Origin: an uncultured Pseudokineococcus sp.
GTDB lineage: Bacteria > Actinomycetota > Actinomycetes > Actinomycetales > Quadrisphaeraceae
Direction: 5' to 3'
DNA: 41,392 nt
Assembly: GCF_947499845.1 (NCBI RefSeq)
Contig: NZ_CANMPM010000022.1
Coordinates: forward strand, 1-41,392
The translations under genes were made by a program, and so were the position numbers. Position 1 is the first letter of the stretch, and every line of letters starts with the position of its first letter. This document shows, piece by piece, positions 3,193-14,989 of this stretch. The notes beneath the pieces are model-generated. The model made no database searches, was not told the DNA's origin, and saw nothing but the letters and a program-made list of their open reading frames with translations.

Positions 3193-4094
3193 GCGCGCCC
3201 CGCCGCGCGCGCCTGGACGCCGAGCTGGTCCGCCGGGGCCTCGCCCGCTCGCGGCAGGAGGCCGGTGAGCTCGTGGGAGCCGGGTCGGTGCTCGTGCGGG
3301 GCCAGCGCGCCACGAAGCCGGCCACGCAGGTCGAGCGCGCCGACCCGATCGTCGTGGACGAGGTCGGCGAGGGGGAGGGGCCGTCGGGCTCCGGCCGCCG
3401 CTGGGCGAGCCGCGGGGCGCACAAGCTCCTCGGCGCGCTCGGGGCCTTCCCCGACGTCGACGTCACCGGGCGCCTCGCGATGGACGCCGGGGCGTCGACG
3501 GGGGGCTTCACCGACGTCCTGCTCGACCGGGGGGCGGAGCGCGTCCTCGCCGTCGACGTCGGCTACGGCCAGCTCGCCTGGCCGGTGCGCAGCGACGACC
3601 GCGTCGTCGTCCTCGACCGCACCAACGTCCGACTCCTCGCGCCCGACGCCGTCCTCGAGCAGCTCGGCGCCCTGCCGGCCCTCGTGGTCGCCGACCTGTC
3701 CTTCATCTCCCTGCGGCTCGTGCTGCCCGCCCTGGCGGCCTGCAGCGCCCCCGGCGCCGACCTGCTGCTCATGGTCAAGCCGCAGTTCGAGGTGGGGCGC
3801 GAGCGGCTGGGAGCCGGCGGCGTGGTGCGCGACCCGCGCGCCCGGGCGGACGCCGTCGTGGACGTGGCCGCCGCCGCCGTCGACGCCGGCCTCCTCGTCG
3901 TCGGCTGCGCCGCGAGCCCGCTGCCCGGCCCGAGCGGCAACGTCGAGTACTTCCTGCGCCTGCGCGCCGGGGGGCCGGGCCCCGCCGGGGTTGACCCGGC
4001 CGACCTCGAGGACGTCGTGCTGGCGGCCGTGCGCAGCGGCCCGGGCGGCAGCGCCACCGAGGACGACGCGAGCGACGAGAGGGGCGCGCAGTGA
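3189..4094 (+). CDS. tlyA: TlyA family rRNA 2'-O-methyltransferase
   Basis: 301 aa from the GTG overlapping the previous stop. Residues 1-60 form an S4 RNA-binding domain (RLDAELVRRGLARSRQEAGE, then a VLVRG turn). The rest is an FtsJ-like Rossmann methyltransferase with the SAM-binding DAGASTGGFTDVLL motif and the conserved VADLSFISL and LMVKPQFEVG segments, which carry the catalytic Asp and Lys of the family. In mycobacteria TlyA methylates the 2'-OH of cytidines in 16S and 23S rRNA, and its loss gives capreomycin resistance. The C-terminal ~25 residues are Gly/Asp-rich. It is coupled to nadK by a GTGA overlap. Confidence 0.95.
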   Translation: MSAPRRARLDAELVRRGLARSRQEAGELVGAGSVLVRGQRATKPATQVERADPIVVDEVGEGEGPSGSGRRWASRGAHKLLGALGAFPDVDVTGRLAMDAGASTGGFTDVLLDRGAERVLAVDVGYGQLAWPVRSDDRVVVLDRTNVRLLAPDAVLEQLGALPALVVADLSFISLRLVLPALAACSAPGADLLLMVKPQFEVGRERLGAGGVVRDPRARADAVVDVAAAAVDAGLLVVGCAASPLPGPSGNVEYFLRLRAGGPGPAGVDPADLEDVVLAAVRSGPGGSATEDDASDERGAQ

Positions 4095-5134
4095 CCCAGG
4101 ACAGCCCGGAGACCCCGGGGACCCGGGTCGCGGACGGCGCGGACCCGCAGGCCCCCTCGGGCGAGCGGACCGTCCTCGTCCTGACCCACACCGGGCGGGC
4201 GACCGCCGTCGCCGCGGCCCGCGAGCTCGTGGACCTGCTGCGGGAGCGCGGGCTGCGGCCGGTCATGCTCGCCGAGGAGGTCGGGGACATCCCGGGCGTC
4301 GGGGACGTGCCCGTGCTCGACCCGGACGAGCTCGAGGACTCGGTCGTGAGCGGGGCCGAGATGGTCGTCGTGCTCGGCGGCGACGGCACGATCCTGCGGG
4401 CGGCCGAGCTCGTGCGGCACCGCCCGGTGCCCCTGCTCGGCGTGAACCTCGGCCACGTCGGCTTCCTCGCCGAGAGCGAGCGGGACGACCTGGCGCGCAC
4501 GGTCGACCGCATCGCCGCCCGCGACTACGTCGTCGAGGAGCGGCTCACGCTCGACGTGCGCGTGCTGCGCGACGGCGAGGTCGTGACGACGTCGTGGGCG
4601 GTCAACGAGGCCAGCGTCGAGAAGGCCGAGCGCGAGCGGATGCTCGAGGTCGTCACCGAGGTCGACGGCCGGCCCGTGTCGGTCATCGGCTGCGACGGCG
4701 TCGTCATGGCGACGCCGACCGGCTCGACCGCGTACGCCTTCTCGGCCGGAGGACCGGTGGTGTGGCCGGAGGTCCAGGCGCTGCTCATGGTGCCCATCTC
4801 CGCGCACGCCCTGTTCGCCAAGCCGCTCGTGGCCTCGCCGGGCTCGGTCCTCGCGGTCGAGGTGCTCTCGCGGACGGCCGGCGGGGGCGTCCTGTGGTGC
4901 GACGGGCGACGCACGGCGCAGCTGCCGCCCGGCTCGCGCATCGAGGTGACCCGGGGCGTGCACCCGCTGCTGCTGGCCCGCATCTCCGACGGGCCCTTCA
5001 CCGACCGCCTCGTCGCGAAGTTCCGGCTGCCCGTCGAGGGGTGGCGCGGACCGGTGGACCCCCTCGACGAGGCAGCCGACGAGGGCGCCGACGGCGCGGC
5101 GGACGACCGGGGCGGGCCGTCCGGGGGACGCTGA
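4091..5134 (+). CDS. nadK: NAD kinase
   Basis: 347 aa. The family GGDGT motif is at residues 96-100, followed by VNLGHVGFLAE. The conserved NE pair (VNEASVEK) and the TPTGSTAYAFSAGGP loop, which binds NAD and ATP, are all intact. It phosphorylates NAD to NADP and is the essential source of NADPH. The first ~25 residues and the last ~25 (Asp/Gly/Ala-rich) are extensions beyond the core. The GTG start at 4091 overlaps the tlyA stop by 4 nt. The gene order tlyA-nadK-recN is conserved across Actinobacteria. Confidence 0.96.
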   Translation: MTQDSPETPGTRVADGADPQAPSGERTVLVLTHTGRATAVAAARELVDLLRERGLRPVMLAEEVGDIPGVGDVPVLDPDELEDSVVSGAEMVVVLGGDGTILRAAELVRHRPVPLLGVNLGHVGFLAESERDDLARTVDRIAARDYVVEERLTLDVRVLRDGEVVTTSWAVNEASVEKAERERMLEVVTEVDGRPVSVIGCDGVVMATPTGSTAYAFSAGGPVVWPEVQALLMVPISAHALFAKPLVASPGSVLAVEVLSRTAGGGVLWCDGRRTAQLPPGSRIEVTRGVHPLLLARISDGPFTDRLVAKFRLPVEGWRGPVDPLDEAADEGADGAADDRGGPSGGR

Positions 5135-5137
5135 GGC

Positions 5138-6853
5138 GTGCTCGAGGAGATCCGGATCCGCGACCTCGGGGCCATCGACGCCTCGGCGCTCGAGATCGGC
5201 CCCGGCCTCACCGTCCTCACGGGGGAGACGGGCGCCGGCAAGACGATGGTCGTCACGAGCCTCGGCCTGCTGCTGGGGGCCCGGGCCGACCCCACGGCCG
5301 TCCGCTCGGGCGCGCGGAGCGCCCTCGTCGAGGGGCGCTTCACGCTGCCCGCCACGGGACCCGCCGCCGAGCGCGCCCGGGGGTCCGGCGCCGAGCTGGA
5401 GGACGTCGGGGCCGGGCGCAGCGAGCTGCTCGTGGCCCGCAGCGTCGCCGCCGGGGGCCGCAGCCGCGCCCACGTCGGCGGTCGCGCCGTCCCCAACGGC
5501 CTGCTCGGCGAGCTCGCCGACGACCTCGTCGCCGTCCACGGCCAGAGCGAGCAGGTGCTGCTGCGCTCGCCCGCGCGCCAGCGCGAGGTCGTCGACGCGT
5601 CGGCGGGCGAGGCGGTCGCGCAGCCGATGGCGCGCTACCGCACCGCCTTCGAGCGGCACCGCGCCGTGCGCGCCGAGCTCGACGAGATCCGCACGCGGGG
5701 CCGCGAGCGCGCCCAGGAGGCCGACCTCCTGCGGCACGGGCTCGAGCGCGTCGAGCGCGTCGACCCGCAGCCGGGGGAGGACGTGGCCCTGGCGCAGGAG
5801 GCCGAGCGCCTCACCCACGCCGAGGACCTCCGACTCGCCGCGGCCACGGCTCGCGCCGCTCTCACGGGTGACGACGACGCCGGCGGGGGCGAGGCCCCGG
5901 GGGACGCGGTCGGCGCCGTCGAGGTCGCCCGTCGGGCGCTGGAGGCGGTGCGGGCCCACGACCCGGCGCTCGCGGCGCTGGCCGACCGCCTCGCCGAGGT
6001 GTCCGTCCTCGTCGTCGAGGCCGGCGCCGACGCCGCCGCGCACCTCGCCGAGCTGGAGGCCGACCCCGCGCGGCTCGCCGTCGTGCAGGAGCGGCGCGCC
6101 GAGCTCGCGGCGCTGGTGCGCGCCTACGGCGAGGACGCGTCCGCCGTCCTCGCCTGGGCCCGGGAGGCCTCGCAGCGCCTCCTCGAGCTCGAGGGCGACG
6201 ACGACCGGGTGGGCGCCCTCGCGGAGGAGGAGCGCGCCCTCGCCGAGGAGCTGGAGGCCCTCGCCGGCCGGCTGCACGACGCCCGGGCGGCGGCGGGCGA
6301 GCGGCTGGCCGCGGCGGCGAGCGCGGAGCTCGAGGCCCTCGCGATGGCCGGGGCCCGGCTCGAGGTGAGGGTGGAGCGCACCGAGCGGCTGTCGGCCACG
6401 GGGGGCGACGACGTCGCGCTGCTGCTCGCGGCCCACGCCGGCGCCGAGCCCCGGCCGCTCGCCCGGGGCGCCTCCGGCGGCGAGCTGTCGCGCGTGATGC
6501 TCGCGCTCGAGGTGGTGCTGGCCGAGGCCGACCCGGTGGAGACCTTCGTCTTCGACGAGGTCGACTCGGGCGTGGGCGGTCGCGCCGCGGTCGAGATCGG
6601 CCGCCGCCTGGCCGCGCTCGCGGAGCGCTCCCAGGTCCTCGTCGTCACCCACCTGCCGCAGGTGGCGGCCTTCGCCGACCACCACCTCCTCGTGGAGAAG
6701 GGCGGCGACGGCAGCGTCGTCGCGAGCGGCGTGCGCGCGCTCGAGGGCGAGGACCGGGTGGCGGAGCTGGCGCGGATGCTCGCCGGGCGCGGCGGCTCCT
6801 CGAGCGCGCGCGCCCACGCGGCCGAGCTCCTCGAGGGCGCCCGCCACCGGTGA
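5138..6853 (+). CDS. recN: DNA repair protein RecN
   Basis: 571 aa. The GTG at 5138 follows the nadK stop by 3 nt, with a GGGGGA ribosome-binding site inside the nadK end. It is an SMC-like ATPase: Walker A GETGAGKT at residues 29-36, a long Ala/Glu/Arg-rich coiled coil in the middle, the ABC signature GASGGELSRVM, Walker B TFVFDEVDSGVGG, and a C-terminal VVTHLPQVAAFADHHL switch. It binds DNA ends and aids recombinational double-strand-break repair. No SOS (LexA) box was found upstream; the gene is embedded in the operon. Confidence 0.96.
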   Translation: MLEEIRIRDLGAIDASALEIGPGLTVLTGETGAGKTMVVTSLGLLLGARADPTAVRSGARSALVEGRFTLPATGPAAERARGSGAELEDVGAGRSELLVARSVAAGGRSRAHVGGRAVPNGLLGELADDLVAVHGQSEQVLLRSPARQREVVDASAGEAVAQPMARYRTAFERHRAVRAELDEIRTRGRERAQEADLLRHGLERVERVDPQPGEDVALAQEAERLTHAEDLRLAAATARAALTGDDDAGGGEAPGDAVGAVEVARRALEAVRAHDPALAALADRLAEVSVLVVEAGADAAAHLAELEADPARLAVVQERRAELAALVRAYGEDASAVLAWAREASQRLLELEGDDDRVGALAEEERALAEELEALAGRLHDARAAAGERLAAAASAELEALAMAGARLEVRVERTERLSATGGDDVALLLAAHAGAEPRPLARGASGGELSRVMLALEVVLAEADPVETFVFDEVDSGVGGRAAVEIGRRLAALAERSQVLVVTHLPQVAAFADHHLLVEKGGDGSVVASGVRALEGEDRVAELARMLAGRGGSSSARAHAAELLEGARHR

Positions 6854-6923
6854 CGCCCGACGGCGCGGCGCGCGCGGGTCGTGGTGCCGGGGACGGGGCG
6901 TCGACGTGGGACCATCGGCCACG

Positions 6924-8111
6924 ATGAGACGCGTCCTGCGCCGGCGGCCCGCCGCGCCCACCACCGCCGACGGCGTCGTGCGCGTCGACCGCCGCACGAA
7001 GGACCTCACCAAGAGGCTCCAGCCCGGGGACGTCGCGCTCATCGACCACGAGGACGTCGACCGCGTCGCCGCCGAGGCCCTCGTCGCCGCGCAGCCGGCC
7101 GCCGTCGTCAACGCCGCGGCGAGCACCTCCGGCCGCTACCCCAACCTCGGGCCGCAGATCCTCCTCGACGCGGGCGTCGTCCTCCTCGACCGGGTGGGCC
7201 CGGACGTCATGGGAGCCCTGCACGAGGGGCAGGCGGTGCGCGTCGACGGCGACCGGCTCCTCCTCCTCGAGGACGGCCGGGAGCGCGTCGTCGCCACCGG
7301 CGTCCGGCAGACGCCGGAGACCGTCGCGGCGGCCATGGAGGAGGCGCGCGAGGGCCTCGGGTCCCAGCTCGAGCTCTTCGCCGCCAACACGCTGGAGTAC
7401 ATGCTCCGCGAGAAGGACCTCCTCTTCGACGGGGTCGGCGTGCCCGACGTGCGCACGTCCTTCGCCGGGCGCCAGGCCCTCGTCGTCGTCCGCGGCTACC
7501 ACTACCGGGAGGACCTGGCCACGCTGCGGCCCTACATCCGCGAGTACCGGCCGGTGCTCATCGGCGTCGACGGCGGAGCGGACGCGGTGCTGGAGGCGGG
7601 CCACGCCCTCGACATGGTCGTCGGCGACATGGACTCCGTCTCGGACGCGGCGCTGACGAGCGGTGCCGAGGTCGTCGTGCACGCCTACCGCGACGGCCGC
7701 GCCCCCGGGCTCGACCGCGTGCGCGCCCTGGGCGTCGACCCCGTCGTCTTCCCCGCCACGGGCACGAGCGAGGACGTCGCCATGCTCCTGGCCGACGACC
7801 GCGGCGCCGAGCTCATCGTCGCCGTCGGCACCCACGCGACCCTCGTGGAGTTCCTCGACAAGGGGCGCGCCGGCATGGCCAGCACCTTCCTCACGCGCCT
7901 GCGCGTGGGCGGCAAGCTCGTCGACGCGAAGGGCGTCTCGCGGCTGTACCGCCAGCGGATCTCCACGGCGCAGGTGGCCGCCCTCCTGCTCGCGGGCCTG
8001 CTCGCGCTCGTCGTCGCGCTGCTGTCGACGTCGGCGGGCCAGACGCTCGTGTCGCTCCTCGGGGCCCAGCTCGACGGCCTGCTCGCGCCGCTGCTCTCGT
8101 GGACCGGCTGA
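6924..8111 (+). CDS. steA: SteA-like cytokinesis protein (thiamine pyrophosphokinase fold)
   Basis: 395 aa from the ATG at 6924 (a GTG at 6906 would add 6 residues). A possible -10 (GACCAT, 6910-6915) lies 8 nt upstream, so it may be leaderless. The central part resembles the thiamine pyrophosphokinase catalytic domain (VLIGVDGGADAVLEAGHALD, then VVGDMDSVSD). It is preceded by a domain with NAAASTSGRYPNLGP and LLDRVGPDVM, and followed by a single membrane helix near residues 350-372 (AALLLAGLLALVVALL). This matches the family (Rv1697 in M. tuberculosis) whose C. glutamicum member SteA acts at the division septum with SteB in daughter-cell separation. The next gene encodes the SteB/MctB family partner, which supports the call. 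Confidence 0.88.
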   Translation: MRRVLRRRPAAPTTADGVVRVDRRTKDLTKRLQPGDVALIDHEDVDRVAAEALVAAQPAAVVNAAASTSGRYPNLGPQILLDAGVVLLDRVGPDVMGALHEGQAVRVDGDRLLLLEDGRERVVATGVRQTPETVAAAMEEAREGLGSQLELFAANTLEYMLREKDLLFDGVGVPDVRTSFAGRQALVVVRGYHYREDLATLRPYIREYRPVLIGVDGGADAVLEAGHALDMVVGDMDSVSDAALTSGAEVVVHAYRDGRAPGLDRVRALGVDPVVFPATGTSEDVAMLLADDRGAELIVAVGTHATLVEFLDKGRAGMASTFLTRLRVGGKLVDAKGVSRLYRQRISTAQVAALLLAGLLALVVALLSTSAGQTLVSLLGAQLDGLLAPLLSWTG

Positions 8112-8217
8112 GCCGCCGGCAGGCCGCGGGCCGGACCGCCCCGCCCCGGCGGCCCGCCGCACCGACCCGCACCCCGCGCGCCGCACGGCGGGCACGACCG
8201 CTCCTGGGAGACCTCCG

Positions 8218-9207
8218 GTGATCGACTTCCGCTACCACCTCGTCTCGCTCGTCGGGGTCTTCCTCGCCCTGGCGATCGGCGTGGTGCTCGGCGCCGGGCC
8301 GCTGCGCGACTCCATCGGGGACACCCTCTCCAGCCAGGTCGACCTGCTGCGGGAGGACCGCGCGCAGCTCCAGGGGCAGGTCGACGACCTGTCCGGCCAG
8401 CTGGCCGCCCGCGACGCCGCCCTGGCCGCGGTCGCGCCCGCCGTCGCGGAGGGGGTCCTCGGCGGCACGACGACCGTCGTCGTCGCCCTGCCCGGCGCCG
8501 ACGGCGAGCTCGTGGAGGACCTGTCGGACGCGATCACCGACGCGGGCGGCGACGTCACCGGCGTCGTCGACCTCCAGGGCGCCTGGAGCGACCCCGAGGC
8601 GTCGGACGCCCGCGACGAGGTGGCCGCGGCCCTCCCGGAGCGCGCTCTCGGGGAGGTGACGACCGAGGACGCCGGGACGTCGGCGCTGCTGTCGGCCGCG
8701 CTGGCCGGTGCGGTCGTCGCCCCCGACCCGGTCCTCGCGGGGACGGCGTCGGTCGCCGGTCGCGAGGTCCTCGACGCCCTCGCGGCCGCCGACCTCGTGC
8801 ATCTGGAGGGCGACCCCGTGCTGCGCGCCGCGACGGCGCTGGTCGTGGCCCCGGCCTCCGCGCCGGAGCCGGCAGACGGCGACGCGGCGCCCGGCGCGAG
8901 CGCGGAGCTGGCCCTGCTGCAGGCGCTCGAGGCCACGGGCGCCGGGGTCGTCCTGGCGGGCCCGGCGGAGGCGGCGGCCGAGGGCGGCGCCGTCGCCCTC
9001 CTGCGGGGGGACGACCTCGCGGGTCTCGTCACGGGCGTCGACGGCGCGGGCTCCGCCGCCGGGGAGCTCGCCGTGGTGCTCGGCCTGCGCGAGCAGCTCG
9101 ACGGCGGCGCCGGGCAGTACGGGGCGGGCGACGGCGCGGGCGCGGCGCTGCCGCCGCTGGCCGCGGCGCGCGCCACGGCCGCCGAGCAGCCCGGCGGTGA
9201 GGGGTGA
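8218..9207 (+). CDS. steB: SteB / MctB family membrane protein
   Basis: 329 aa. The GTG at 8218 has a GGGAG site 8-12 nt upstream. It opens with the family signature IDFRYHLVSLVGVFLALAIG, where a membrane helix spans residues ~6-27. A coiled coil follows (LSSQVDLLREDRAQLQGQVD, ~38-75), then a long Ala/Val-rich extracytoplasmic domain, and an Ala/Gly-rich tail. The family was first named for mycobacterial copper export (MctB, Rv1698), but in Corynebacterium it is SteB, the partner of SteA in cell separation. The SteA neighbour here favours the division role. No Cys, His or Met cluster for metal binding is obvious. Confidence 0.87.
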   Translation: MIDFRYHLVSLVGVFLALAIGVVLGAGPLRDSIGDTLSSQVDLLREDRAQLQGQVDDLSGQLAARDAALAAVAPAVAEGVLGGTTTVVVALPGADGELVEDLSDAITDAGGDVTGVVDLQGAWSDPEASDARDEVAAALPERALGEVTTEDAGTSALLSAALAGAVVAPDPVLAGTASVAGREVLDALAAADLVHLEGDPVLRAATALVVAPASAPEPADGDAAPGASAELALLQALEATGAGVVLAGPAEAAAEGGAVALLRGDDLAGLVTGVDGAGSAAGELAVVLGLREQLDGGAGQYGAGDGAGAALPPLAAARATAAEQPGGEG

Positions 9208-10154
9208 GCGCCCGGGCCCTGCCGGCCGCCACCGCCGCGGCGACGGCGGGGCTCGCCTGGGCCGGGGCGCGGCGCCTGGCCGCCCGACCGGCGGGGGAGC
9301 GCTGGGCGCGCACCAACCACCGCGGCCGGCCGCTGACCCTCCTCGAGGGTCCCGCGCTCGCCGTCGGCGCCCTGGCCGCCGTCGCCGTCGCCCCCCTGCC
9401 CGCCCGGGCGCGGGCCGGGGCGGCCCTCGCCACCGCGGTCGCGGGCGCGCTCGGCGCGGTCGACGACCTCGCCGGCTCCGCCGACGCCCGCGGCCTGCGC
9501 GGCCACCTCGGCGCGCTGGCGCGCGGCCGCCTCACCACCGGCGGGCTCAAGGTCGTCGGCATCGGCCTCGGCGGGCTCGTCGGCGCGGCCGTCCTCGACG
9601 GCCGCGGCCCGGACCACGACGCGCCCTCGGCCCTCGACCGGCTCGTCGCGGGCGCCGTCGTCGCGGGCAGCGCCAACCTCGTCAACCTCCTCGACCTGCG
9701 CCCGGGGCGGGCCCTCAAGGCCGTCCTGCTGCTCGGGCACCTCGTCGGCGGCGCCGGCGTCCCGGGCTCGCGGCCGGGCGCGCCGCTGGCGTCGGCGGGA
9801 GCCGGCGCGGCCGCGGCGCTGCTGCTGCCCGACCTGCGCGAGCGCGGCATGCTCGGCGACTGCGGCGCCAACGCGGCGGGCGCCCTCTTGGGCTGCGCGG
9901 TGCTCACGCGGACGCGCTCGCGCGCCGCCCGCGCCGCCGTCCTCACCGCCCTGCTCGCGCTGACGGGGGCCTCGGAGCGGGTGAGCTTCACGCGCGTCAT
10001 CGAGTCCACGCCCGGACTGCGCCAGCTCGACCGCCTCGGCCGCGCCGCTCCGCCCGCGGGCCGGCCCACCGCCCCGCACGCCGGCTCGCCCACTGCCGCG
10101 CCCACCGCCCCGCCCACCGCCCGGGCGGCGCCGGCCACCACGCCCGGGCCGTGA
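9204..10154 (+). CDS. MraY/WecA-like polyprenyl-phosphate sugar-phosphotransferase homologue
   Basis: 316 aa, GTG overlapping the steB stop by 4 nt. Several membrane helices are visible (VGALAAVAVAPLP, VVGIGLGGLVGAAVL, AVLTALLALTGAS). Three catalytic-type motifs of the PNPT family are recognisable: the Asp pair in GAVDDLAG, Asn and Asp in NLVNLLDLRPGRALK, and Asp in MLGDCGAN. The C-terminal cytosolic His loop of MraY (HHH) is absent: the protein reaches RVSFTRVIESTPGLRQLDRL and then ends in a Pro/Ala/Thr-rich tail of ~45 residues. The family links a sugar phosphate from a UDP-sugar to a polyprenyl phosphate. Substrate is unknown, and an inactive homologue is possible. Its place between steB and murJ points to envelope precursors. 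Confidence 0.75.
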   Translation: MSARALPAATAAATAGLAWAGARRLAARPAGERWARTNHRGRPLTLLEGPALAVGALAAVAVAPLPARARAGAALATAVAGALGAVDDLAGSADARGLRGHLGALARGRLTTGGLKVVGIGLGGLVGAAVLDGRGPDHDAPSALDRLVAGAVVAGSANLVNLLDLRPGRALKAVLLLGHLVGGAGVPGSRPGAPLASAGAGAAAALLLPDLRERGMLGDCGANAAGALLGCAVLTRTRSRAARAAVLTALLALTGASERVSFTRVIESTPGLRQLDRLGRAAPPAGRPTAPHAGSPTAAPTAPPTARAAPATTPGP

Positions 10155-11962
10155 GGCCGCTCGGCCGCGGCCTGCTGGGCGCGGCCGCCCTCATCGCCGT
10201 CCTCACCGCTCTCGCCCGCGTCGCGGGCTTCCTGCGCGGGCTCGTCTTCACCGCCGGCGTCGGCAACGCGACCGTGGTCGGCGAGGCCTACAACGCCGCG
10301 AACACGGTGCCCAACGTCCTCTTCGAGGTCGTGGCGGGCGGCGCGCTGGCGGGCGCCGTCGTCCCGCTCCTCGCCGGGCCCCTGGCGGCGGGGGACCGGC
10401 GGGGCGCCGAGCGGGTCGTGGGCGCGCTGCTGGGGTGGACCCTCGTCCTGCTCGTGCCCGCCGCCGTGGCGGTGGCGGCCCTCGCCGGGCCCCTGTCGCA
10501 CCTCCTGCGGCCCGGCGCCGCGCTCGCCGACCAGCGGGCCCTCGTCGCCGCGATGCTCGTCGTCTTCGCCCCCCAGGTCGTCCTCTACGGCCTCGGCGTC
10601 GTCCTCACCGGGGCGCTCCAGGCGCAGCGGCGCTTCACCTGGCCCGCGCTCGCCCCGCTCTTGTCGAGCCTCACGGTCATCGGCGCCTACGCCCTCTACG
10701 CGCGTCTGTCGGGGCCCGGGTCGGGCGACGGCGCCGCGGCCGGTCCGGCGCTCGCCGTCCTCGCGGGGGGGACGACGCTCGGCGTCGCCGTCCTCACGCT
10801 GCCGCTGCTCGGCCCCGTCCTCGCCGGCGGGCTGCGCCCCCGGCCGACGCTCCGGTTCCCGCCCGGCGTGCTGCGCCGCGCCCGGGGGCTCGCCGCGGCG
10901 GGGCTGCTGGCGCTGCTCGCCCAGCAGGCCGCCGTCCTGACGGCCCTGCTGCTGGGGGGGCGGCTCGGCGACCCGGTGCCCGGCTCCTTCAGCGTCTTCG
11001 TCCAGGTCGTGCAGCCCGTGTCGCTGCTGCCCTACGCCGTGCTCGCCGTCCCCCTCGCGACGAGCGCCTTCCCGCGGCTCGCGGAGATGGCGGCGCGGGG
11101 GGACGCGGTCGGCTTCGCCCGGACGGCGGCCGCGAGCACCCGCGCCGTCGTGCTCGTGGCGCTCCTGGGCAGCGCCCTCCTCGTGGCGGTCGCCCCCGCC
11201 GTCCAGGCCCTCTACGCGGCGCTCGACGCGGGCGGGGCGGGGGCCGGGGGCGGCCGCACGACCGCCTACGCCGCCGTGGCGGACGCCGTCACGGCCGTCG
11301 CCCCGGCGCTGCTGGGGCTCGCCCTCGTGGCCCACGTGGGGCGGGCGCTCTACGCCCTCGAGCGCGGCCGGGCGGCGGCCACGGCCACCGTCACCGGCTG
11401 GCTCGCCGTCGTCGTGGCCGAGGTGGCGCTGGCCGCGGTGCTCCCCGGGGAGGACCGCGTGGTGGCGCTGGCGGCCGGCACGAGCGCCGGCATGGTGGTG
11501 GCCGCGGCGCTGCTCCTGCGGGCCCTGGGCGCCGCGGCGGGGCCCCGCGCCCTGGCCGGCGTGGGGCGCACCCTCGCCGCGTCGCTCGGCGCCGGGGCCG
11601 CGGGCGCCGTCGTCGGCCGGCTGGTCGTCGACGCCCTCCTCGGCGCGCTGGACGGGAGTGACGCCGGCACGGAGCTCGCGGCCGTGGGCGCGGGCGCCGC
11701 GGGCGCGGCCGCCGCCGTCCTCGTCACCGCCGCCGGCGCGGCCCTGCTGGACCGCCGGACGGCGGCCGCGGCCCTGGCCCGCCTGCGCGGCCGGCGCGGG
11801 GTGCGCCAGGGTGGGGCGGTGCCCGGCTCGACCCCGGGCGCGACCCCGGGCGACGGGACGGGCCGCGACGGGGGACCCGGGGGCGCGCCGGGCAGCACGC
11901 CGCCGCGCGCCGCGCGGGACGACGAGGGGCCGACGGACGGCCGCGGGAGGGAGCGGACGTGA
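10151..11962 (+). CDS. murJ: MurJ-type lipid II flippase (MOP exporter family)
   Basis: 603 aa, GTG overlapping the previous stop by 4 nt. About 14 hydrophobic helices span residues 10-530. The start resembles MurJ (LARVAGFLRGLVFTAGVG, then AYNAANTVPNVLFEVVAGGA). Further family-like segments include QVVLYGLGVVLTGALQAQRR and LLPYAVLAVPLATSAFPRL. MurJ flips lipid II to the outer membrane face for peptidoglycan synthesis. The Arg pair after the PN motif in E. coli MurJ is not present, as in other actinobacterial copies. The C-terminus (~45 residues) is a Gly/Pro/Asp-rich disordered tail; no pseudokinase domain as in mycobacterial MviN. Many actinobacteria have another MurJ near oriC, so this may be a paralogue. 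Confidence 0.88.
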   Translation: MRPLGRGLLGAAALIAVLTALARVAGFLRGLVFTAGVGNATVVGEAYNAANTVPNVLFEVVAGGALAGAVVPLLAGPLAAGDRRGAERVVGALLGWTLVLLVPAAVAVAALAGPLSHLLRPGAALADQRALVAAMLVVFAPQVVLYGLGVVLTGALQAQRRFTWPALAPLLSSLTVIGAYALYARLSGPGSGDGAAAGPALAVLAGGTTLGVAVLTLPLLGPVLAGGLRPRPTLRFPPGVLRRARGLAAAGLLALLAQQAAVLTALLLGGRLGDPVPGSFSVFVQVVQPVSLLPYAVLAVPLATSAFPRLAEMAARGDAVGFARTAAASTRAVVLVALLGSALLVAVAPAVQALYAALDAGGAGAGGGRTTAYAAVADAVTAVAPALLGLALVAHVGRALYALERGRAAATATVTGWLAVVVAEVALAAVLPGEDRVVALAAGTSAGMVVAAALLLRALGAAAGPRALAGVGRTLAASLGAGAAGAVVGRLVVDALLGALDGSDAGTELAAVGAGAAGAAAAVLVTAAGAALLDRRTAAAALARLRGRRGVRQGGAVPGSTPGATPGDGTGRDGGPGGAPGSTPPRAARDDEGPTDGRGRERT

Positions 11963-13173
11963 GGGTTGTGCTCGTCGCCGGCCGCGCCACGGGCGGGATC
12001 GCCGGCCACGTCGCCGCGCTCGCCTCGGGGCTCGCGGACGCCGGCGTCGACGTCGCGGTCGCGACGGGCGACGCGACGGCCGACCGGTGGGAGGAGCTCG
12101 GTGCCGGCGCGGGCCCGGGAGACGTGCACGCGCCCGTCCCGCCGGGCGTCCCGGTGCTGCGGCTGTGGCCGAGCCCCCGCCGGCCGCTCGCGGCCCTGCG
12201 CCGTGCCCGGGCGCTGCGGCGCCTGCTCGGCGGCGCCGACGTCGTGCACGCCCACGGCCACCAGGCCGGGCTGCTCGCGCTGCTCGCCGCGCGGGGGCTC
12301 CGCGGGCCCCGCCGGGCGCGCGGCCGCGTGCGGGCGGCCGGTCCGGCCGTCGTCGTCACCTGGCACAACGCCGTCCTCGCCGCGCCCGGCGGCGCGGCGC
12401 AGCGCGCCCTCGAGGTCGCCGAGCGCCTGCAGGCCCGCCGGGCCGACCTGCTCACCGGGGCCTCCGGGGACCTCGTCGCCCGCGCTCGCGCGCTCGGCGC
12501 CGGGCGGGTCGAGGTGACGCCCGTCGGGGTCCCCGACCGGGCGGCCGACGGCGGGCGCGGGCGCGGCGGGCCGGTGCCGGCCCCGCCGCCCGCCGGCCTG
12601 GAGGACCTGCCGCCGGACGCCCTGGTGGTCCTCACCGTGAGCCGCCTGGCCCCCCAGAAGGACCTGCCGACGCTCGTGCGCGCGGCGGCCCGCCTCGGCA
12701 CCGGGCGCGGGGCGCGGGGGCGGGGCGCCCCCGTCACGTGGTGCGTCGTCGGCGACGGCGACCCGGCGGTCGAGGCGCGCGTGCGCCGCCTCGTCGCGGA
12801 GCTCGACGCCCCGGTGCGCCTGCTCGGGGCCCGCCCCGACGTCCCGGAGCTGCTCGCGCGCGCCGACGTCTTCGCGCTCTCGAGCACGTGGGAGGCCAGG
12901 TCGCTGGCCGTGCAGGAGGCCATGGCCGCCGGGCTGCCCGTCGTCGCCACCCGCACCGGCGGCCTGCCGGACCTGCTCGAGGGCGTCGGCGCCCTCGTGC
13001 CGGTCGGCGACGACCGCGCGCTCGCCGACGCCGTCGCGGCCCTGCTCGCCGACCCCCTGGCGCGCGAGCGCGCGGGCCGCGCGGCCCGCGAGGCCTTCAC
13101 CGCCCTGCCGGGACCGCAGGACGTGCTCCGCGGCTGGATCGACCGCTACGCCCGCCTGGCCGCCGACCGCTGA
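11959..13173 (+). CDS. family 4 glycosyltransferase (GT-B fold)
   Basis: 404 aa, GTG overlapping the murJ stop by 4 nt. The N-terminal half has the glycine-rich [20 protein letters not shown] start and [10 protein letters not shown]. The C-terminal half has the donor-binding [17 protein letters not shown] and the EX7E motif (EARSLAVQE) within [20 protein letters not shown]. This is a retaining glycosyltransferase that uses a nucleotide-activated sugar. The acceptor is unknown; coupling to murJ and a PNPT homologue suggests a cell-envelope glycan or lipid-linked sugar. Soluble or membrane-associated, as no membrane helix is seen. Confidence 0.86.

Positions 13174-13267: not shown

Positions 13268-13268
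<1 letters not shown>
13254..13268 (+). promoter_or_regulatory. pyrG promoter (-10 TACCGT), probably leaderless
   Basis: TACCGT at 13254-13259 lies 8 nt before the GTG at 13268. No Shine-Dalgarno sequence is present and no clear -35 is seen, since the upstream region is the 16-bp repeat. There is no room for the C-tract attenuator known from Bacillus pyrG. Confidence 0.55.

Positions 13269-14985
<1,717 letters not shown>

Positions 14986-14989
<4 letters not shown>

Follow-up and report, generated by a model that had tools for sequence, protein, structure and literature searches.

The described systems closest to the one treated here are the SteAB pairs of Corynebacterium and Mycobacterium (PMC6705760 and PMC12977500, with PMC9897464 and PMC12338722). 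According to PMC12338722, cell separation in mycobacteria needs SteA (TapA) and not MctB, and SteA acts with MtrAB; SteA would therefore have roles that are independent of SteB. PMC12977500 describes structures of SteA and SteB with a thiamine pyrophosphokinase (TPK)-like pocket, the stabilisation of CgSteA by UDP or GDP with turnover not reported, and a bitopic SteA that works with SteB and RipA, and it places SteAB next to spo0A in some Clostridia, an adjacency of SteA and SteB outside the Actinobacteria. The main text of that paper mentions neither MraY nor MurJ and uses neither the word glycosyltransferase nor flippase, although a supplementary figure may show the neighbours. Among the matches listed in literature searches there was no PNPT or MurJ partner of SteA, and none was returned for the tags SCO1777-SCO1780. 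The functional work on SteA in these papers was done with the corynebacterial and mycobacterial proteins, and the pocket of SteA is conserved. Here we compare these systems with a block of five genes, headed by steA and steB, in a stretch of 41,392 nucleotides from an uncultured Pseudokineococcus sp. (contig NZ_CANMPM010000022.1 of assembly GCF_947499845.1, positions 1 to 41,392 of the forward strand; hereafter the window).

In the window, steA and steB are followed by genes for a divergent membrane protein of the PNPT fold, a MurJ-like flippase of a subfamily that we call MurJ2, and a GT4 glycosyltransferase. With a probability of roughly 0.6, we read this block as the version, in actinomycetes, of a module that is old in the actinobacteria, in which the PNPT, the glycosyltransferases and MurJ2 would assemble a lipid-linked glycan with SteA as their functional partner, and of which loci that hold SteAB only would be remnants. 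The observations behind this reading are the linkage and overlap of the genes, their wide distribution, their joint loss, and the decay of SteA residues where the PNPT is gone. The block is composed as follows.

6924..8111, + strand: SteA, 395 amino acids (ATG start at 6924, in-frame alternative GTG at 6906; 496 bits to NF040608, 'division_SteA', against a curated cut-off of 150)
8218..9207, + strand: SteB/MctB, 329 amino acids (GTG start; 253 bits to PF11382, above the cut-off of 25.6)
9204..9207, + strand: GTGA overlap of steB and the PNPT gene, read from the sequence
9204..10154, + strand: divergent PNPT-fold membrane protein, 316 amino acids (AlphaFold model, Foldseek, profile match to MraY chains)
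10151..10154, + strand: GTGA overlap of the PNPT and murJ-like genes, read from the sequence
10151..11962, + strand: MurJ-like flippase, subfamily MurJ2, 603 amino acids (131 bits to PF03023; own branch in the tree)
11959..11962, + strand: GTGA overlap of the murJ-like and GT4 genes, read from the sequence
11959..13173, + strand: GT4 glycosyltransferase, 404 amino acids (PF13692, PF00534 and PF13579)

An earlier note on this DNA had described the five genes as lying head to tail with the last four coupled by GTGA overlaps, and the sequence bears this out at all three junctions; SteA and SteB are separated by a gap of 106 nucleotides, with no overlap. Across the loci compared, a start codon that allows the 4-nucleotide overlap was present at 37 of 87 SteB-PNPT, 36 of 73 PNPT-MurJ2 and 45 of 78 MurJ2-GT4 junctions, and at 1 of 26 GT4-PyrG junctions. 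The genes of a priming enzyme, a glycosyltransferase and a flippase, which together mark a lipid-linked glycan module, are found in one overlapping string by sequence and synteny, and the PNPT, MurJ2 and GT4 (or GT2) proteins are, as predicted from their sequences, parts of a lipid-linked glycan pathway. The further proposal of the note, that all five genes form one functional unit, stands insofar as a conserved unit with such pathway parts was found, and is to be refined in that its most constant core is SteA-SteB-PNPT.

Using the window PNPT as the query, we found a match in 20 genomes of a sample of 39 relatives, the window genome counted, and RecN, SteA, SteB, PNPT and MurJ2 occurred in the same order in all of the other PNPT-positive relatives (19/19). 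Of these 19, 15 yielded a GT4 and 16 a PyrG, some contigs ending earlier. Thus the linkage of the PNPT, MurJ and GT4 genes with steAB in related genera, on which the note had made its idea depend, was found. Six genomes of genus g2, which belongs to the family of the window (G004, G007 and G009-G012), were without SteA and without a match to the window PNPT.

SteA scored above its cut-off in 143 of the 396 genomes of a phylum-wide sample. When the PNPT was counted as present at 100 bits or more, 119 of these 396 genomes had SteA and PNPT, 24 SteA alone, 10 PNPT alone and 243 neither; the corresponding counts for 197 genomes of the class were 67, 38, 10 and 82. At 80 loci taken from the 143 SteA-positive genomes, and picked to spread over families, the PNPT was present in 67, MurJ2 in 29, GT4 in 20 and GT2 in 37. 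The 13 loci without PNPT comprise seven real absences (L050-L053, L055, L056 and L125), five cases with a strong PNPT elsewhere by whole-genome search (L061, L072, L084, L109 and L120) and one PNPT that looks damaged (L077, in G242). Named loci around SteA, the best 80 of 531 matches in a contig scan, gave a PNPT in 67, MurJ2 in 62 and GT4 in 44; those with PNPT include Actinomadura, Nocardiopsis, Nonomuraea, Kribbella, Jiangella, Geodermatophilus, Micromonospora, Actinomyces and Knoellia, as well as bins of Acidimicrobiia in which MurJ2 often precedes the PNPT. Twelve of the 13 named loci without PNPT lie at or near a contig end, and whole-genome searches for these returned a PNPT elsewhere in six (one an 81-bit fragment), none in five and a weak one in one; in the thirteenth, L197, the PNPT lies away from the SteA locus, next to a SteB and a GT2.

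Because the block is widespread across the phylum, it is most simply taken as ancestral: SteA-SteB-PNPT looks to be an ancestral set of the Actinomycetota, accompanied by a MurJ-like protein, GT4 or GT2 in many lineages, and the extra genes look to have been lost in mycobacteria-like genomes. The wide synteny across relatives and named loci leads us to reject the view of the earlier note that the three genes are a lineage-specific insertion. Its observation that recN, steA, mctB and pyrG adjoin one another in mycobacteria without these genes agrees with the mycobacteria-like loci, which share with ours the homologous, adjacent SteA and SteB and the recN-pyrG neighbourhood, but differ in lacking PNPT, MurJ2 and GT4 (the labels mycobacteria-like, Streptomyces-like and Nocardiopsis-like were inferred from kinship, gene order and place in the tree). 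In 12 of the 14 loci of the mycobacteria-like clade PyrG begins within about 0.2 kb after SteB; the gap is 1.2 kb in L125, and no SteB was found at the locus in L051.

Loss of the PNPT is accompanied by changes in SteA itself. In a first full comparison, 153 PNPT-positive rows were set against 20 others over 60 SteA columns that are at least 97% conserved; 19 of the 20 had lost 13 to 30 of the 60 columns, and L197, with its PNPT elsewhere, had lost 1. The decay was selective, since some columns never change and H42, G217, S238, K313 and G337 were changed in 19 of 20. SteA was then scored as intact when at least 9 of 11 diagnostic residues were kept. In a later set it was decayed in 10 of 12 PNPT-lacking loci and intact in 8 of 8 PNPT-containing loci, and in the combined table of 180 loci those without PNPT had 27 decayed and 2 intact SteAs, and those with PNPT had 0 decayed and 151 intact. 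In this table, loci from a list of 12 with uncertain PNPT status were left out if they showed no PNPT, 11 loci at contig ends or rearranged were scored as PNPT-positive through whole-genome search, and L127, with its PNPT split over two contigs, was rescored as PNPT-positive. Four of the diagnostic codons are located in the window as follows.

7047..7049, + strand: SteA H42, altered in 24 of 28 decayed rows, against 1 of 151 PNPT-positive rows
7635..7637, + strand: SteA S238, in the GDMDS motif, changed in 28 of 28 decayed and 0 of 151 PNPT-positive rows
7860..7862, + strand: SteA K313, changed in 28 of 28 decayed and 3 of 151 PNPT-positive rows
7932..7934, + strand: SteA G337, changed in 28 of 28 decayed and 0 of 151 PNPT-positive rows

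At the PNPT-lacking loci SteA has lost 33% of its invariant columns, compared with 0.4% for RecN, 0.3% for PyrG, 0% for NadK and 0.4% for TlyA; SteB, which has only 6 invariant columns, loses 8%. These values bear on the explanation that an old gene string has simply been kept for the sake of expression, with SteAB and the glycan genes functionally untied. TlyA, NadK, RecN and PyrG, for which no such tie is known, are indeed conserved in the same string, but the co-loss and the residue decay touch SteA and not these four, and the overlaps lie inside the block and end before PyrG, which leaves that explanation very improbable. The flanking genes of the window are the following.

4091-5134: NadK, upstream flank gene
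5138..6853, + strand: RecN, 509 bits to TIGR00634, conserved upstream neighbour
13268..14989, + strand: PyrG, 741 bits to TIGR00337, conserved downstream neighbour, without overlap

On a FastTree phylogeny of RecN, PyrG and NadK, from which loci with too few marker genes (e.g. L056 and L272, both decayed) were left off, the PNPT-lacking loci form 10 clades, 8 of which have a decayed SteA. It could be argued that SteA became adapted to RipA-type hydrolases in some lineages and that the PNPT was lost there for unrelated causes, such as changes of the envelope or the genome, so that the association would be one of lifestyle. Such an explanation would suit the concentration of the decayed rows (14 of 27 in one clade and 5 of 27 in another) and the envelopes of mycobacteria-like organisms, which are strongly different; yet both losses are seen in 8 separate clades, several of them single genomes inside PNPT-positive families or orders, and the neighbour proteins are free of decay. 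We regard it as unlikely.

Several observations weigh against the module reading and have to be set beside it. The 11 diagnostic residues were picked after the first decayed rows had been seen, and the later set was chosen with the SteA scores and the absence of PNPT already known, so it was not blind. A paired sign test over supported branches of the tree, made before L127 was rescored, gave 6 concordant, 0 opposite and 2 undifferentiated pairs, with a p value of only 0.031; a smaller earlier set had been concordant in 4 of 4 (p = 0.125). Two loci without a full PNPT, L274 and L275, retain 11 and 10 of the 11 residues, which shows that an intact SteA can outlast the PNPT for a while. The tree places them amid Nocardiopsis loci and their relatives; they are without MurJ2 and have kept GT4, and in L274 a PNPT-like stretch of 23 bits remains. 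They look like recent losses that precede decay. In L248 (G242), the PNPT match is split into two weak parts next to GT2 and PyrG, through damage or an assembly error, and SteA is intact. Whole-genome searches found no convincing PNPT for six named loci at contig ends with an intact SteA, nor in the draft genomes G023 and G027.

The reciprocal case counts in both directions. In ten Streptomyces-like genomes (L237-L246) the genes for the PNPT and GT4 follow recN and precede pyrG, the latter wherever the stretch extends that far; no SteA match exceeds the cut-off, and the stretch contains neither SteB nor MurJ2. The PNPT-GT4 pair has thus been kept without SteA and SteB, and the PNPT can be of use without them, which speaks against the reading; that the PNPT has decayed in the absence of SteA, with RecN and NadK unchanged, speaks for it. 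These PNPTs keep the aspartate pair, D164 and D219; N158, K172 and N223 are changed in all ten, and the C-terminal motif is absent from most. The loss of invariant columns in this one lineage was 28.5% for PNPT, 20.7% for GT4, 4.6% for TlyA and 0% for both RecN and NadK, and since GT4 and TlyA diverge too, the PNPT is not alone in decaying there.

Taking these points together with the counts, the putative binding-site residues of SteA look to have decayed where the PNPT was lost long ago, and the SteAs that have been studied look like worn-down forms. SteA consists of an N-terminal domain, a TPK/HPPK-like domain and a transmembrane segment, with a match to PF12555; residues 210-245 match the thiamine pyrophosphokinase family PF04263 at 25.6 bits, under its cut-off of 30.7. 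A Foldseek search with the SteA model (pLDDT 84) ranked 9hmy and 9hmz first, followed by archaeal HPPK and thiamine pyrophosphokinase, and the sequence profile of intact-type SteA likewise led to 9hmy (M. tuberculosis SteA), 9hmz (C. glutamicum SteA) and then archaeal HPPK (8sd5). The C-terminal domain of SteA resembles these pyrophosphokinases in fold and in its DGG and GDxD motifs, and differs from them by the added N-terminal domain and the transmembrane segment; the likeness is carried by the VDGGAD and GDMDS motifs, both among those that decay. H42 does not appear to lie on the site of the PEP-utiliser motif.

When aligned, 9hmy shows H42 as V, R190 as D, D216-G217 as G-T, S238 as Q, H253 as P, S282 as A, K313 as R and G337 as A, and 9hmz shows H42 as A, R190 as P, S238 as G, H253 as P, K313 as N and G337 as V, with D216, G217 and S282 kept. 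The M. tuberculosis and C. glutamicum proteins thus differ from PNPT-positive SteAs in several residues that the latter keep, and by this alignment both solved structures are of the decayed type, 9hmz less completely at the DGG motif. A sensor could have left the same trace: a non-catalytic SteA would bind the glycan or lipid of the PNPT pathway as a signal for septal hydrolysis, and its pocket would decay once the pathway, and with it the ligand, was gone. The co-decay fits this equally well, and a bitopic SteA with SteB and RipA would suit a signalling relay, as would stabilisation of CgSteA by UDP or GDP with turnover not reported (PMC12977500). The invariant set, however, includes the GDxDS serine and other polar, pyrophosphokinase-like residues beyond what a binding pocket would need, which is suggestive only, and we place the sensor on the doubtful side. 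A bolder version of the module reading, advanced tentatively and as less likely than not, is that most actinobacterial SteAs are active enzymes of the pyrophosphokinase superfamily in one pathway with a new class of PNPT, for instance making its donor, for a previously undescribed, division-tied lipid-linked glycan, and that the corynebacterial and mycobacterial SteAs are pseudoenzymes that remain from this pathway.

The PNPT itself is a distant member of its superfamily. It scored 17.4 bits against PF00953, under the cut-off of 27, which a relative in L081 passes with 28.3 bits. With its AlphaFold model (pLDDT 90), the first 22 Foldseek matches were all MraY or DPAGT1 at probability 1.00, with E values of 1.6e-3 or worse, TM scores of 0.41-0.56 and about 15-20% identity to solved members; the A4 profile matched MraY chains at E 1.5e-6. 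Two motifs are located in the window.

9462..9467, + strand: aspartate pair D87-D88, present in 99% of the 151 aligned PNPTs and retained by all 10 Streptomyces-like ones
9675..9719, + strand: N158-K172, NxxNLLDLRPGRALK, a family variant of the usual NxxNxxDGLDGL; N158, N161, D164, R169 and K172 are present in 151 of 151 aligned PNPTs

The family shares with MraY, WecA/TagO and DPAGT1 the fold and the DD, NxxNLxD and GDxG motifs that mark the superfamily. Because these metal-type motifs are invariant, the idea that the PNPT is a dead relic was ruled out, and from its sequence we infer that it is active. The DGLDG loop and a C-terminal histidine motif are the donor-recognition features of MraY and WecA; in the window PNPT a DxRPGRxxK sequence stands in place of the loop, and the protein lacks the histidine motif and has a C-terminal motif of its own. 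Since the usual donor motifs are replaced, the donor probably differs from UDP-MurNAc-pentapeptide and UDP-GlcNAc.

MurJ2 passes PF03023 (cut-off 27.4), as MurJ does, and falls short of the MurJ equivalog TIGR01695 (124.3 bits against 235.55). In a tree, 33 MurJ2 rows and 30 canonical MurJ rows are split by one branch with an SH-aLRT of 94. All 20 PNPT-positive genomes of the 39 relatives have a MurJ scoring 77-165 bits at the SteA locus and a canonical MurJ (>175 bits) elsewhere, and in G021 one more copy, of 134 bits, lies away from the locus; no match in the 77-165-bit range was found in the 19 PNPT-negative relatives, where G027 has a fragment of 48 bits. Two of the genomes without PNPT, G005 and G029, each carry two MurJ copies above 200 bits, so a duplicated canonical MurJ also occurs apart from the module. 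As MurJ2 stands apart from canonical MurJ, the statement that MurJ flips lipid II, which had been carried over to this gene, is not to be assumed for it. The absence of the arginines of E. coli MurJ was considered as an argument against a MurJ role and dropped, because these positions seem to be absent from the canonical MurJ of this genome as well and so decide nothing; two arginines invariant in MurJ2 are shared by 100% and 80% of canonical rows.

Elsewhere the window genome encodes canonical members of both families, one MurJ (282 bits) and two PNPTs (131 and 116 bits), of which one PNPT ends in a WecA-type and the other in a MraY-type histidine motif. With canonical copies elsewhere, the window PNPT and MurJ-like protein are extra paralogues. 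This bears on the proposal that the block serves peptidoglycan precursors, with MurJ2 as a division-specific lipid II flippase and the PNPT as a modified MraY. Both families do include peptidoglycan members, but the presence of a canonical MurJ and an apparent MraY-type PNPT in the same genome, the separate branch of MurJ2 and the lack of the usual donor motifs in the PNPT make it quite improbable.

PNPT enzymes move phospho-sugars onto polyprenyl phosphate, GT4 and GT2 enzymes extend the product and MOP-type proteins flip it. Under the module reading, the divergent PNPT would prime a polyprenyl carrier with a phospho-sugar or a related group at the cytoplasmic face, GT4 (GT2 in other lineages) would extend the lipid-linked sugar, and MurJ2 would flip the resulting glycan, possibly at the septum. 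The TPK/HPPK-like pocket of SteA may make, deliver or sense an activated donor or the lipid product, and SteB would relay the state of SteA to a septal hydrolase on the outside. After loss of the PNPT, in mycobacteria-like and several other lineages, the pocket residues of SteA would then decay and SteAB would persist as a regulator of the hydrolase. If the studied SteAs are indeed decayed forms, PNPT-containing actinomycetes are the place to look; the ligand of SteA would likely come from the PNPT pathway, as one of its substrates or products, and this could be tested directly. The PNPT superfamily is an antibiotic target, and the module would add a new branch to it and would connect daughter-cell separation throughout the phylum with a lipid-linked glycan.

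The glycosyltransferases vary more than the core. In basal lineages, a GT2 of about 217 amino acids (PF00535) often lies between SteB and the PNPT, and in L081, L105, L106 and L107 a single open frame carries both GT2 and PNPT profile matches; Pfam searches of L081, L105 and L107 confirmed PF00535 in all three and PF00953 in L081 only. One frame in L089 combines MurJ2 and GT4, with a further ~690 residues without a Pfam match. These combined GT2-PNPT and MurJ2-GT4 frames suggest natural fusions. A gene for a PMT_2-type GT-C is present at the locus in L117.

No locus labelled as clostridium proper was among the best 80 of the 531 contig-scan matches. A bin labelled Armatimonadetes (L197, L267) carries an intact SteA and, on a separate contig, SteB-GT2-PNPT, which hints at an occurrence of the module outside the Actinomycetota, unless the bin is mixed. 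Two bins, labelled Thermoanaerobacterales (L163) and Bifidobacterium breve (L129), are probably mislabelled; their SteA loci look actinobacterial, and MurJ2 precedes the PNPT in them as it does in the Acidimicrobiia bins.

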